Below, piece after piece: positions 3,103 to 49,417 of a DNA stretch of 64,000 nucleotides (positions within the stretch are counted from its first letter, which is position 1; each line of letters starts with the position of its first letter). The notes under the pieces were generated by a model. It saw only the letters and a program-made list of their open reading frames with translations. It did no database searches and was not told the DNA's origin. Origin of the DNA: Planctomycetota bacterium (GTDB taxonomy: Bacteria; Planctomycetota; Planctomycetia; Planctomycetales; Planctomycetaceae); the NCBI GenBank assembly GCA_022600195.1, contig JAHZKX010000058.1, positions 62,001 to 126,000 on the forward strand. Reading direction: 5' to 3'. The position numbers were made by a program, and so were the translations under genes.

Positions 3103-3951
3103 ATGCCCCGTTATATTCGTAGTGCACGCGGATCAAGAAACTCCTCTTTCAAAATGCGTCTCGTGATCGCGGTGGGAATTGCTTTGTTTACTTTCATTTC
3201 CTATATGATGAAAGGAGACATCAATAAGATTACAGGCGAAAAACAGAGAGTCGCATTAACCGAACAACAGGAGATCGTTTTGGGTTTACAGGCAATGCCC
3301 ACGATTATCAAACGCCACCACGGCGAGCATCCGGACCAGAAGTCTCAGGATTATGTTGATCGGGTTGGAAATCGTCTGCTTCAGAGTTTAAATAAATCAT
3401 TGCAGAGCCAGGGACGTCGAAATCCATATCAGTTTGACTTTCATCTTCTGAATGATGATCAAGTTGTTAATGCATTTGCGTTACCGGGAGGTCAAATCTT
3501 TCTTACCGCGGCACTTTATCAACAACTAGAAACGGAAGGACAGCTAGCGGGCGTTTTGGGACACGAAATAGGTCATGTACTATCAAGACATGGGGCACAA
3601 CAAATGGCCAAGCAGGAATTCACCCAGGGATTAGTCGGCGCTGCAGGCGTGGCAGGTGGTGATGTAAGCAGCGCCCAAATGGCCCAAATGATTGGTTCAA
3701 TGGTCAATATGAAATATGGCAGGAGTGATGAACTGGAATCTGACCGCTGGGGAATAGATTTAATGATTATGGCCGGCTATGACCCCTACGCAATGACGGG
3801 AGTCATGGATATCCTCAAACGATCTACGGGAGCAGGAAAACAACCCGAAATATTCAGCACTCATCCTGATCCAGGGAACCGGATCGAACAGATCAGGAAT
3901 TACATTCAAAAGTCTTATCCCTCAAATCTTCCCTCTGATCTGATACCATAA
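3103..3951 (+). CDS. M48-family membrane-associated zinc metalloprotease
   Basis: 282 residues. A basic N-terminus is followed by one hydrophobic segment (about residues 19-36), giving a membrane anchor or uncleaved signal. The zinc motif HEIGH lies near residue 154 in GHEIGHVLSRHG. The third ligand is probably the Glu in the later DELESDRWG segment, which matches the ExxxD of M48 peptidases. The family (HtpX, Oma1, BepA/LoiP) works in envelope protein quality control, and the short length and loose peptidase core fit the BepA/LoiP-like group without the TPR part. AAGGA about 10 nt upstream supports the ATG at 3103. It is monocistronic, 147 bp after the cytochrome gene. Confidence 0.88.
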   Translation: MPRYIRSARGSRNSSFKMRLVIAVGIALFTFISYMMKGDINKITGEKQRVALTEQQEIVLGLQAMPTIIKRHHGEHPDQKSQDYVDRVGNRLLQSLNKSLQSQGRRNPYQFDFHLLNDDQVVNAFALPGGQIFLTAALYQQLETEGQLAGVLGHEIGHVLSRHGAQQMAKQEFTQGLVGAAGVAGGDVSSAQMAQMIGSMVNMKYGRSDELESDRWGIDLMIMAGYDPYAMTGVMDILKRSTGAGKQPEIFSTHPDPGNRIEQIRNYIQKSYPSNLPSDLIP

Positions 3952-4107
3952 CTGGTCAAGAATCTTTGCTGCTTTCTGAATCTATGGTTAGCTGTTGATC
4001 TCACGACAAGCAAACCATTTGGCCTGCATTGACTCTGAATTTCCCGTTATCTGCTCGAGCGTAAGGCACTGCCTGAACAAAACATACGACAGAAACTAGT
4101 TAGTGAA

Positions 4108-4135
4108 TTGACATTACTCTGGGATAGGCTATTAT
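4108..4135 (+). promoter_or_regulatory. Near-consensus sigma70-type promoter
   Basis: TTGACA at 4108-4113 and TATTAT at 4130-4135 are separated by 16 bp. This is a perfect -35 and a five-of-six -10. Transcription would start near 4142. The nearest gene on this strand is rho, 1 kb away, so the promoter more likely serves a small RNA or a long leader. Confidence 0.55.
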
Positions 4136-4141
4136 GTGTAT

Positions 4142-4267
4142 AGAACGTGCTAGCAATGCGATTAGTATTGACGCTATGAGATTGTTTTGATAAACAACAT
4201 TAAGTGAGAAATTTCTAGTAAGCCGTTTTTCAAATGAGGATCTCTCCCGCTCTTTGAGATCGTTTTC
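4142..4267 (+). ncRNA. Candidate small RNA between promoter and terminator-like hairpin
   Basis: The boundaries are inferred. The predicted start is about 7 nt after the TATTAT -10 element, and the end is at GATCTC (4239-4244) pairing with GAGATC (4256-4261), followed by GTTTTCC. The T-run is short, so this is only a possible intrinsic terminator. No known RNA family (tmRNA, SRP RNA, RNase P) is recognisable. No ORF of useful size lies inside. Confidence 0.3.
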
Positions 4268-4799
4268 CATGTACCAGTTTGAAATAATTAACTGGTGATT
4301 AAGTTGGCTTTAAAGTAAGTTGAGTCGTTTCCAGCGGGCGTTATTTCCTCAACAGCATTACTCCTGAAACTATTTAGGAGTCTCATATTCTTGAAAGTAA
4401 TTTCTCTTTCATTAATGCACTGAGTGAAGCTCTAAGTAATTCAAACCAGTTGCAGGCAACCAAGCCACTTACTAGATACGAACTTCGTTTATCAGCATAA
4501 TTACTTGCTTGCAGTTATTAATTTTATGAAAATAGAGTAAGATTATATTCCGGCCTGATCTTCTATTTAAGTCAGACCAGAGAGGCGAACAGGACCGATC
4601 CCGAAAGCCTAATAACTTACGAAAACATTTAAAAGTTCCTTAATAGCAGCCACTTATTGGTTGACGGAGCTTGCACAAAACGATTGAATTTCTAAGTATC
4701 AGTTTTTGACCCTAATATTTTTTGCCTGAAAGGAAATCGGCAAGGCAATCACCCTAATAAAGCATTCGTCAACAAGCTTTAACAAGCTCACTGTTATCA

Positions 4800-4952
4800 A
4801 TGCCTGGACTAAATCTCTTTGATATTTCAAATGCGATTGTCCTGCACAATGGGAATAAACAGGCCATGAAGGTCGAGTCCAATACTGGGCGTATTATTCC
4901 TCCACGTGAATCTTTCTTCATGAGATCAAGATCAGGTCTGTTTTACGTTTAA
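4800..4952 (+). CDS. Possible 50-residue small protein upstream of rho
   Basis: An ATG-initiated ORF of 50 codons ending in TAA. The product begins MPGLNLFDISNAIVLHNG and has a basic C-terminal third. There is no clear Shine-Dalgarno sequence and I recognise no family. It is listed because the composition looks protein-like and it is one of the few open stretches in this gap, but it could be chance. A weak hairpin, GGTCT/AGACC followed by CTTTT, overlaps its stop codon. Confidence 0.2.
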   Translation: MPGLNLFDISNAIVLHNGNKQAMKVESNTGRIIPPRESFFMRSRSGLFYV

Positions 4953-5146
4953 GACCCTTTTCGCGTTTCCACTGAATTAAGAATCGGCTCGTTCAGAAGT
5001 TTACCAGCAGAATTCAGGCATCATCGTCAGCTCTGTGCTGAAAATGTCCGGGCTTGAATGACTATCGGTCACTTCGTGACACGTTCATGCCGTAGTTGTG
5101 TCTCTGAATATTTCGTTACTATATTAGAATGATTTGGTGTTTCTGT

Positions 5147-6769
5147 ATGGCTGCTAAAAGTTCTGAAACTTCAGACAAACCCAAAACCACTCGCCGAAAA
5201 TCAACAAAGACACCAAAAAAAGTAGAGGCTTCGGCAGAGGACTCTTTTGAAAAAAGTGAAACTGACGCTCTGCAGGATGAATACCATCGCAAAGCAGAAG
5301 AAAACCTTGAAATTTTCGAAAACTCGCATTCATCCAAAAGTGAAGCAGAACCTGAAAGAGAACATGAAAGTATGTCAGACATTCCTGCTGAATCCGTAAG
5401 CGACGATAACTCAGAACGAACCCAGAAGGACCAATCTGATAAAACAGGTGGTAACCGTCGTAGAAGACGACGAAGAAGAAAACCAGAAGGAGCCAGCAAC
5501 GCTCCTGCCAATCAAGGACAAGGCCAGAATCGTCAGGGGGGTGGAAATCGAGGCCGCTCCAACAGCTCAAACAACAGAGGTGGAAACCGATCTCGCACTG
5601 GAGGAAGAAATCAAGCTCGACGTCCCCGTTCCACATCCTCTGCTGCCAATGAAAATATCTCCGGTACTATCGAAGGCGTTTTGGAACTTCATCCTAAAGC
5701 TTACGGATTTATCAGAGATCCTAAAGTCAATTATAAAGCTCAAGACTCTGATGCTTTTGTTTCCAGCTCTTTAATTGAAAAGCATAATTTGCGCGAAGGT
5801 ATCCTGATTCGGGGAGAAGTCGGCCCTGGCACTAGAGGTCAAGGTCCACGACTCAAAACCATCGAAACCATTGATGGACGAACCGTTGAAGAGTATATGG
5901 AAATAAAATGCTTTGATGAATTGACTCCGATCAATCCATTCGAACAGATCAAGCTCGAAACAGGAGCCATGCCTATCACGATGCGTATCATGGACCTGCT
6001 TACCCCCATTGGAAAAGGTCAAAGGGCACTCGTTGTGGCTCCTCCCCGGACTGGAAAGACCATGTTATTACAGGATATTGCTGAAGCTGTCAGCAAGAAT
6101 CATCCTGAAATCCGCTTGATGGTCTTATTAATTGATGAACGTCCTGAAGAAGTTACTGAAATGGAACGTTCCATCAAAGGTGAAGTCATTTCATCTTCGA
6201 TGGATCGTGATGTTGAAAGCCATGTGCGTACAAGCCAACTCATATTTGAACGTGGCAAACGACTGGCAGAAGCAGGTGAAGATGCTTTCATTTTATTAGA
6301 TAGTATCACACGAACGGCGCGAGCATTCAACAAGTGGGTTGGTAACACCGGCCGTACAATGAGCGGTGGCCTCGATGTAAAAGCTATGGATATCCCTAAA
6401 AAGATGTTTGGAACTGCACGTCGCTTTGATGAAGGTGGATCTCTCACAGTACTGGGGACAGCACTCATTGACACAGGCAGTCGCATGGATGAAGTGATTT
6501 TCCAGGAATTCAAAGGAACCGGCAATATGGAAATGGTTCTCAGCCGCGAACTTTCTGATCGCCGTATTTTCCCATCCATCGATATCACGCTTTCCGGTAC
6601 ACGTCGTGAGGAAAAAATCCTGGATCCAGAAGTTTTGGACGGTGTCACAATGCTTCGAAGAAGTTTGATCTCTCTAAGCCCGGTTGAAGCAATGGAACAA
6701 CTTGGCAATACACTCAAGAAATTTCCTACTAATAGTGAATTTCTGGAAAAAATCCGTGCTATTCTTTAG
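5147..6769 (+). CDS. rho: Transcription termination factor Rho
   Basis: Hexameric RNA-dependent ATPase/helicase that ends transcription. From the chosen ATG at 5147 (MAAKSSETSDK) the protein is 540 residues. A further in-frame ATG at 5129 would add only MIWCFC, which is unlike Rho N-termini. Residues 1-165 are a low-complexity extension, first acidic/lysine-rich, then an Arg run and Gly/Asn/Arg-rich sequence. The cold-shock RNA-binding domain follows (about 170-240). The ATPase core has Walker A APPRTGKT at about 298-305, Walker B LMVLLIDERPEE and the secondary-site segment NTGRTMSGGLD. The long Arg/Gly/Asn insertion resembles those in Actinobacteria and other phyla. A hairpin at 5068-5080 lies in the leader. 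Confidence 0.97.
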   Translation: MAAKSSETSDKPKTTRRKSTKTPKKVEASAEDSFEKSETDALQDEYHRKAEENLEIFENSHSSKSEAEPEREHESMSDIPAESVSDDNSERTQKDQSDKTGGNRRRRRRRRKPEGASNAPANQGQGQNRQGGGNRGRSNSSNNRGGNRSRTGGRNQARRPRSTSSAANENISGTIEGVLELHPKAYGFIRDPKVNYKAQDSDAFVSSSLIEKHNLREGILIRGEVGPGTRGQGPRLKTIETIDGRTVEEYMEIKCFDELTPINPFEQIKLETGAMPITMRIMDLLTPIGKGQRALVVAPPRTGKTMLLQDIAEAVSKNHPEIRLMVLLIDERPEEVTEMERSIKGEVISSSMDRDVESHVRTSQLIFERGKRLAEAGEDAFILLDSITRTARAFNKWVGNTGRTMSGGLDVKAMDIPKKMFGTARRFDEGGSLTVLGTALIDTGSRMDEVIFQEFKGTGNMEMVLSRELSDRRIFPSIDITLSGTRREEKILDPEVLDGVTMLRRSLISLSPVEAMEQLGNTLKKFPTNSEFLEKIRAIL

Positions 6770-31615: not shown

Positions 31616-31705
31616 GCGCATCCCATTTACCATGGCGTCTTTCATTCTGTTAGACTCATTTCAAATGGCCTTGGAGACGCTACAGTAATCCTGGACACAG
31701 GCTAG
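31616..31705 (+). repeat. Dispersed 90-bp element, copy A
   Basis: About 83% identical over the last 71 bp (12 mismatches, no gaps) to copy B at 62672-62762 on the minus strand; both start GCGCATCC and end CTAG. The core has GCGTCT pairing with AGACGC about 35 nt later, unchanged in both copies. There is no ORF. It lies on the same strand as the preceding gene, downstream of its terminator. It could be a small RNA, a regulatory site or a non-coding mobile remnant. Confidence 0.7.
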
Positions 31706-32077
31706 CCCTTACGATGTCTGATCTTAGCTCGAGCGCGTCGTTTTTTTCGACCTATTTTTCGGCGACCTTTGCCTGTCTTCTTGGTTCCCATTCTGAGAAA
31801 TGCCTTTCGTATCAGCTCTTACCAGTGAAATTTAGTCTATATCCGTTTATGTTAATCAACAAACACGAGTCAGATGTTCGATTATGTGAGTGTTGAAAAA
31901 GATTAGAAATATATCAATCGTCTTCCAAATCGTCACTCTAACAGGCTTTGATAGAATCTTCAACCACGCATATTCAAGGAATTTAAGGTCCCTTGAGAAA
32001 TCTGACCTAAAACACCAAGATAGAGAGATTAGCCTGCAAACAATCGTAAATCCCACAATTCATCAGGAACAGCAATT
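31706..32077. other. Non-coding stretch before the aldo/keto reductase gene
   Basis: Short frames only. A T-rich segment near 31739-31759 (TCGTTTTTTTCGACC) could be an imperfect hairpin with T-run. CAGGAA upstream of 32078 is the ribosome site of the next gene. Nothing else is seen. Confidence 0.4.
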
Positions 32078-48589: not shown

Positions 48590-49088
48590 GTTTTTATAAG
48601 TCTTAAAATAGAAACAAAGAAGATGGAAAACCGTTCCCGTCGATTTTCCAAGAAATTCAGTAAAAAGCTTACTTAAGTACTGACTTTTCTACAGGGAATG
48701 AAGAATCCTTACGAACCTTCAGCACCTGAATGCATCAAATCAGATACCCAAAAGACCAAATATCGATGCTACACGGATTCCAAACAGAATACCACCAAAC
48801 AAGCGTAGTTAGACTAAGAGATCCCTGTTTGAGCCACTATGATTTCCCTAGACTTTTTCACTAGACCAATCGGCTCGCAGTCACCAATCTGAGTTAAAAT
48901 AGGGATGTTACGAAATTATTTCTGAAGATTTGCTCTTTGCTTGACCTAACTTCGATCGGTTATTAGGATTCGGTGAAACTCATACGAAGAAGCGTCGAAT
49001 AATGACTCTATCACTTCTGTTGATTAAATAGTTTCAACTCAATAAACTCCTCTATGATAAGAGTTTATTGTTTCTTGATGAAATTCAG
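48590..49088. other. 499-bp gap upstream of tRNA-Cys
   Basis: No gene. A perfect hairpin, CAATAAACTC (49040-49049) with GAGTTTATTG (49061-49070), followed by TTTC, lies 18 bp upstream of the tRNA. A possible -35 TTGACC near 48939 lacks a good -10. The rest shows nothing. Confidence 0.5.
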
Positions 49089-49162
49089 GGCGCCGTAGCC
49101 AAGTGGTCTAAGGCGGTGGATTGCAAATCCATTATTCCCCGGTTCGAATCCGGGCGGCGCCT
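49089..49162 (+). tRNA. tRNA-Cys (GCA)
   Basis: Acceptor GGCGCCG (49089-49095) pairs with CGGCGCC (49155-49161), with discriminator T at 49162 as usual for tRNA-Cys. The anticodon loop TTGCAAA (49121-49127) gives GCA. The T arm is CCCGG-TTCGAAT-CCGGG. The 3' CCA is not encoded (CTT follows), so it is added by CCA-adding enzyme. Confidence 0.97.
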
Positions 49163-49417
49163 CTTTCCTGCCAATCTATGCTGTGCTCTCAATCTGTGCC
49201 AGAGTGGCTATCATCTACAGATTCTTTTCGACGAATTAGATTCCATTATCTGTCGGAAACATTCATTTCCAAGCAAGCCCCTGTCATCGACTTCATTCGT
49301 CACTCCACTTTTTCCAAGCTGATTCAAAACAGTTCCTGCTATTCAATCATCCTCAATCTTTGAATTGATACAGACTTTCTATGCAATCAAATGGTCTGCC
49401 TGACGGTGAGTCAGTTA
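49163..49417. other. Gap after tRNA-Cys
   Basis: Two overlapping plus-strand frames run out of the tRNA and are not credible genes. No other signal is seen before the terminator at 49418-49454. Confidence 0.4.

Follow-up and report, generated by a model that had tools for sequence, protein, structure and literature searches.

Which gene is served by a strong promoter that has no gene right behind it? The question is raised by a site in a 64,000-nt stretch of planctomycete DNA (hereafter called the window), which is assigned to a Gimesia genome, as the two best relatives of its rho gene among named records are Gimesia MAGs. The site consists of TTGACA at position 4108, a 16-nt spacer and TATTAT ending at 4135, and with 11 of 12 consensus matches it is indeed the strong sigma70-type promoter that was originally predicted. 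It lies in a gap of 1.2 kb that separates the gene of an M48 peptidase from rho. The absence of a gene directly behind it was also noted in the original prediction, and no forward-strand ORF of more than 50 aa lies between the promoter and rho. From this, an orphan promoter driving a small RNA of ~125 nt was proposed. The evidence discussed below points to another answer, i.e., that 4108–4135 is probably a distal promoter of rho with an untranslated leader of ~1 kb (estimated probability 0.78). In searches on rho leaders and on the start sites and ncRNAs of planctomycetes, which covered titles and the start of abstracts in a literature with few subscription papers and no bioRxiv preprints, no description of the locus was found, and little turned up on regulatory RNAs in the phylum. 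The features of the locus are as follows.

3103–3951, forward strand: M48 peptidase gene, the upstream neighbour in Gimesia (Pfam PF01435, E 7e-34)
4072–4107, forward strand: conserved element upstream of the −35 box, CTGAACAAAAYAT ... GTGAA (all 16 usable rows of the genus alignment)
4108–4135, forward strand: promoter TTGACA-N16-TATTAT, read as a distal rho promoter (conservation, linkage to rho)
4142–4425, forward strand: structured 5' leader domain of about 285 nt in island 1, start predicted (identity, consensus fold)
4235–4351, forward strand: central domain, which excludes the GATCTC hairpin (predicted to be dominant in 13 of 16 species)
4239–4261, forward strand: GATCTC/GAGATC hairpin, the terminator of the original prediction (arms kept in all 16 species, without a conserved U-tract)
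4426–4619, forward strand: fast-evolving leader spacer (183–203 nt in 16 genomes, 175 nt in G006)
4620–5146, forward strand: island 2, the second conserved block, forming the rho-proximal leader (alignment; structure clear in 4800–5128)
5147–6769, forward strand: rho, transcription termination factor (Pfam Rho_RNA_bind and ATP-synt_ab; 540 aa from the ATG at 5147)

The ATG at 5147 was used as the start of rho; a further in-frame ATG is present at 5129. The distance from the predicted transcription start to the ATG at 5147 is about 1,005 nt. The N-terminal part of Rho (5147–5670), which precedes the RNA-binding domain, is long, of low complexity and rich in Lys, Arg and Gly (GGNRGRSNSSNNRGG), and its length differs widely between genera. 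Most genomes of the family contain two Rho-like matches, the second with about 48–52% identity to the query, and many genomes of family f3 contain three. Further upstream, CCGGAACTGATTTGCCTG is present in three tandem copies (2946–2999) at the stop of the ORF 145–2955.

Sites of the form TTGAC[ATG]-N16-18-TANNAT occur twice in the 64-kb window when both strands are counted, and the promoter at 4108 is one of them. A promoter scan showed no excess (4 found vs. 7.5 expected); the case for the promoter rests on conservation.

Promoters upstream of rho in other genera

The lead for a family-wide analysis was an 83-nt block upstream of rho that is common to two Fuerstiella-like loci; this block had no BLAST match in the Gimesia gap. 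Conserved blocks upstream of rho were seen in other genera (L034/L041 and L035/L038), one block of about 470 nt (77%), which may in part be coding, and one of 83 nt (86%). For the family, 80 regions upstream of rho from outside Gimesia were taken from 130 genomes in which rho had been matched. The choice followed score order for the most part and was blind to the upstream DNA; one region, L189, was too short, which left 79 to be counted. Within 1.6 kb upstream of rho, TTGACA-N16-TANNAT was found on the forward strand in 58 of these 79 regions and on the reverse strand in none, whilst Markov shuffles gave a mean of 0.10; the form was present in 35 of 41 genera. A looser pattern, TTGACN-N15-18-TANNNT, was found in 60 regions on the forward and in 3 on the reverse strand, with a spacer of exactly 16 nt in 59 of the 60 promoters. 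In a set of 36 genera with one genome each, a TTGAA-like stretch stands ahead of most −35 boxes; in Gimesia, GTGAA or GTCAA is found.

A further 17 of the 79 regions contain TTGACA-N16 followed by TAATAC, CAATAC or TCATAC on the forward strand and none do so on the reverse strand, which served as the control for this form, defined after it had been noticed in the data. All examined genomes of the genera g43, g55, g60 and g66 have this TAATAC-type form. The remaining four regions, three from g5 and one from g69, have neither form. Near forms (N17-TAAGAT and N16-TATATT) are in range in two of them, one has TTGACA-N17-TACGAT at −1650, and L212 has none of these.

Outside the family, the looser pattern was present on the forward strand in 21 and on the reverse strand in 1 of 40 genomes, which were chosen for a high rho score among 72 non-family genomes with a match; the spread within the class is thus only roughly estimated, as most of the other 32 genomes carry only a ~51% identical Rho. 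All 11 genomes of family f5 have the looser form, at −645 to −758, and so do all six of f8, f9, f10 and f12, with weak TTGACG forms in both f8 genomes. The form was found in 1 of 3 genomes of f7 and 3 of 12 of f3, and it was not found in f2 (0 of 4), f6 (0 of 1) and f11 (0 of 3).

In 61 whole genomes, the extended pattern TTGAATTGACA-N16-TADNAT was found at 16 places, spread over 15 of the genomes, and a reversed-pattern control at none. By coordinates, 13 of the 16 places are the rho site; the other three belong to two genomes outside the set examined for rho. Both Gimesia genomes among the 61 lack the extended TTGAA-TTGACA form. The shorter TTGACA-N16-TADNAT occurs at 3–30 places per genome in nine genomes, including the rho site in seven; in the other two, the rho site has a C that the TADNAT pattern excludes.

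The M48 peptidase gene does not share this distribution. No homologue was found in the 80 regions of the family, each reaching up to 4.5 kb upstream of rho, nor in 36 other named loci, some of which were shortened. The promoter form accompanies rho in many genera in which the upstream neighbour is not M48, and the promoter probably belongs with rho. This linkage argues against a conserved promoter without a dependent gene, a dependence of rho on the promoter being putative, and the label of orphan is not supported.

Between the promoter and rho, directly upstream of the latter, lies the presumed leader, in which no gene is conserved. Its length is 999–1027 nt in 16 Gimesia genomes and 379–1622 nt elsewhere (median 820, n = 60), counted to the first in-frame ATG or GTG and varying with that choice. 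A second TTGACN-N15-18-TANNNT within the leader was found in none of 16 Gimesia genomes and in one of 60 others. Terminator-like sites were found in leaders of 3 of 37 genera (mean of shuffles 1.2, maximum 3), a scarcity that permits, but does no more than permit, a continuous transcript from the promoter into rho. The longest leader ORF measures 153–192 aa in three genera, so some leaders may hold a gene. No 6–8-mers were common to the leaders across genera above a reversed control. In all 36 genera considered, the purine fraction of the leader is below that of the rho coding region (0.485 vs. 0.551), and in 32 of them it is also below that of the DNA preceding the promoter; in the window, the pre-promoter DNA (3952–4100, 0.470) is even poorer in purines than the leader (0.482). 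A C-over-G bubble of the classical rut type was found at z > 2 in the leaders of none of 37 genera.

Conservation and structure of the putative Gimesia leader

The gap is matched by DNA in all 16 other genomes of the genus. In the resulting alignment of 17 genomes, 16 are usable over the promoter, and G006 is without island 1. TTGAC[AT]-N16-TANNAT is kept in all 16 genomes covering the site, always with a spacer of 16 nt; the distance between the M48 stop codon and the −35 box ranges from 92 to 156 nt. The flank at 3960–4060 is diverged, next to the conserved element at 4072–4107. The window has 20 intergenic stretches of 150 nt or more; the gap is the longest of them and, in four of four relatives, also the one with the most sequence aligned. 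Two other stretches of the window are conserved as well. At 31702–31813, 112 intergenic nt show 87–92% identity in four of four other Gimesia genomes, with extra repeat-like matches from G014 in the neighbouring 31616–31715. The second stretch (48936–49067), just upstream of tRNA-Cys (49089–49163), is 81–91% identical in three of four relatives and matches over a greater length at 78% in the fourth.

Two islands of conservation stand out in the gap, at 4072–4425 and 4620–5146. Originally, a comparison of the promoter and hairpin stretch with the rest of the gap was proposed; both islands are conserved, with a diverged spacer between them. In 14 distant Gimesia genomes, island 1 is 69–79% identical, compared with 28–43% at fourfold-degenerate sites of rho and the M48 gene; in the close relative G010, the values are 98 and 82%, respectively. 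Coding in island 1 was rejected, as no ORF is kept among 16 species and the strand, frame and sequence of the longest one change between them. The original prediction was right as to a non-coding RNA behind the promoter, and the stretch is conserved. Strong matches to the sequence models R1 and R2 were found in Gimesia only (11 Gimesia genomes each; 150 genomes drawn). Weak matches (E 0.01–0.1) were found in two and three other genomes, respectively, and one weak second match in G016; rho is absent around two of the weak R2 matches (L140 and L141). Island 2 contains TTGACG-N17-TTGAAT at fixed spacing in 17 of 17 rows, possibly a second, non-consensus promoter. At the start of this island (4622–4639), the near-palindrome AAAACATTTAAAAGTTCC is identical in 15 of 17 Gimesia rows, with one change in the other two; lying ahead of TTGACG-N17-TTGAAT, it looks like an operator.

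The RNA structure of island 1 is conserved in Gimesia. In shuffles that keep alignment columns, not dinucleotides, the consensus fold of 4142–4425 in seven representatives has a z score of −5.15, with none of 100 column shuffles as stable (other strand, z −3.67). The central domain reaches −5.91, whereas the M48 gene, rho-coding and spacer controls are between −1.1 and 0.5. In island 2, the z score is −4.09 for 4800–5128 and −1.09 for 4620–4800. In a structure of 40 pairs that was drawn up by hand, 95.2% of cells are paired, compared with 34–57% when it is slid along the alignment. Shuffling partners among species still leaves 94.1% of cells paired, because many of the 40 pairs never vary. The central domain is closed by two helices, TGAGGA (4235–4240) with TCCTCA (4346–4351) and CCCGCT (4246–4251) with AGCGGG (4333–4338), in which all cells are paired and most pairs are invariant. 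Covariation is modest: three of the 40 pairs change on both sides, a number reached by 218 of 500 shuffles, and pair types are not in excess, whilst the covariation score and the nine doubly changed cells exceed all 500 shuffles. Outside Gimesia, structure in the initial 260 nt of the leader is clear in g45 (z −4.5, with −3.1 on the reverse strand too) and g4 (z −6.4) and weaker in g29 (−1.9), g37 (−1.5) and g44 (−1.2), with 3–4 genomes and 40 shuffles for each of these three; g48 did not align.

These data bear on the point at which the original prediction let its RNA end. GATCTC (4239–4244), GAGATC (4256–4261) and the GTTTT behind them are present as described, and further hairpins are predicted to follow. 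The arms are kept in all 16 Gimesia species, but the U-run is not: only one T is found in the eight bases after GAGATC in four species, and three in another four. In eight of the 16 species, then, the U-tract is weak or lacking, so that the hairpin is not a conserved terminator. The silence of a first terminator scan says little here, as it allowed loops of up to 8 nt and this hairpin has a loop of 11. A scan with loops of up to 10 nt and at least five T reported the hairpin in four of 16 species, the window genome (G000) not among them, and no intrinsic terminator is conserved among the 16 Gimesia. In the full-length prediction for 13 of 16 species, TGAGGA/TCCTCA and CCCGC/GCGGG form and the hairpin is excluded; it wins in G015, G003 and G002, with probabilities of 0.98 in G003 and 0.97 in G002.

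Competing readings and the possible control of rho

A small RNA of ~125 nt, running from 4142 to the GATCTC/GAGATC hairpin, is very improbable. In its favour are the arms kept in all 16 species, the GTTTT in the window genome and the three species in which the hairpin is favoured, but half of the species have a poor U-tract or none, and the conserved structure goes past the hairpin to about 4425 and excludes it in most species, with conservation returning at 4620–5146. Moreover, the fold of the ~125-nt RNA barely beats shuffles (z −1.33, with 18 of 200 shuffles as good), and the genus alignment gives a z score of only about −1.5 (−1.48). For a stand-alone small RNA with an intrinsic terminator, a conserved GC-rich hairpin with a U-tract would be expected at the 3' end, and none was found. 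Less improbable, yet still unlikely, is an independent, trans-acting ncRNA of ~285 nt (4142–4425) that lies beside rho by chance, with rho being driven from island 2. Island 1 is indeed structured by itself and cut off from island 2 by the diverged spacer, and island 2 holds the fixed-spacing TTGACG-N17-TTGAAT. However, promoters of the same form go with rho across genera, which the M48 neighbour does not, the sequence of island 1 was not found outside Gimesia beyond weak matches in two genomes, and there is no conserved terminator and no consensus promoter between island 1 and rho. 6S RNA (RF00013) is a structured regulatory RNA, and it was rejected as an identity: the leader region has no match to it, and the 6S match of the window genome, which stays below the family cut-off (E 2.6e-5), is at another place, G000:C54. 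RNase P and a weak SRP match, the latter likewise below the cut-off, are at other places in the genome too.

The comparative evidence favours a continuous transcript into rho, which the original prediction had named as incompatible with its small RNA. According to the distal-promoter reading, transcription would start near 4142, cross the untranslated leader, i.e., the structured 5' domain of ~285 nt, the fast-evolving spacer and the conserved rho-proximal block, and enter rho at 5147; the leader would then presumably set Rho levels.

How it might do so can be considered against other bacteria. What is known of how Rho levels are controlled comes mainly from a few model bacteria. The rho leader of E. 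coli is about 255 nt long; the planctomycete leader is longer, with a median of 820 nt outside Gimesia and about 1,000 nt in Gimesia. An untranslated leader upstream of rho is a feature that planctomycetes would share with E. coli and B. subtilis, in which rho is reported to be autoregulated by attenuation in its own leader (PMC6582626; PMC5540618). In contrast to theirs, the planctomycete leader is without a C-over-G bubble and, in Gimesia, strongly structured, and Rho dependence is putative here. In B. subtilis, C excess and T-richness are described as marks of Rho-terminated fragments (PMC13323073). In Salmonella, the rho leader is a target of RNA regulation by the sRNA SraL (PMC6582626); SraL acts in trans, whereas nothing that acts in trans is known at the planctomycete leader.

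Among the possible mechanisms, feedback of Rho on rho via attenuation in the leader is the most likely, although somewhat less likely than not. A long untranslated leader would fit such attenuation, and the low purine content of the leaders speaks for it; the missing C-over-G bubble and the purine-poor DNA ahead of the promoter in the window speak against it. When Rho is plentiful, transcription would end inside the untranslated, purine-poor leader, and when Rho is in short supply, transcription would reach rho. The folded leader domains could delay or gate Rho loading, and a stable leader fragment could accumulate that resembles an sRNA. An alternative for this step alone, which is compatible with the distal promoter, is a riboswitch-like or protein-binding leader in which the exclusive GATCTC/GAGATC and TGAGGA/TCCTCA folds control rho and Rho itself is not involved. 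Both of these helices being invariant or nearly so, with a predicted winner that differs among species, would suit such a switch, but it is doubtful: no known Rfam riboswitch or leader family matches the gap at or above the gathering score, no ligand is suggested, compensatory changes are few (the 3 of 40 pairs mentioned above), and the sequence is found in one genus only. Equally doubtful, and the boldest extension of Rho feedback, is an RNA sensor of Rho activity across much of the class, in which promoter and architecture persist while the leader sequence turns over between genera. In Gimesia, the exclusive folds, GATCTC/GAGATC on the one hand and TGAGGA/TCCTCA with CCCGC/GCGGG on the other, would then switch Rho-dependent termination on and off.

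If the distal-promoter reading is true, a deeply conserved promoter with a leader of 0.4–1.6 kb ahead of rho would suggest that control of Rho levels in planctomycetes is kept by architecture and not by leader sequence. The distal rho promoter would offer a ready experimental system in planctomycetes, and other seemingly orphan promoters in planctomycete gaps may serve genes that are located a kilobase away.
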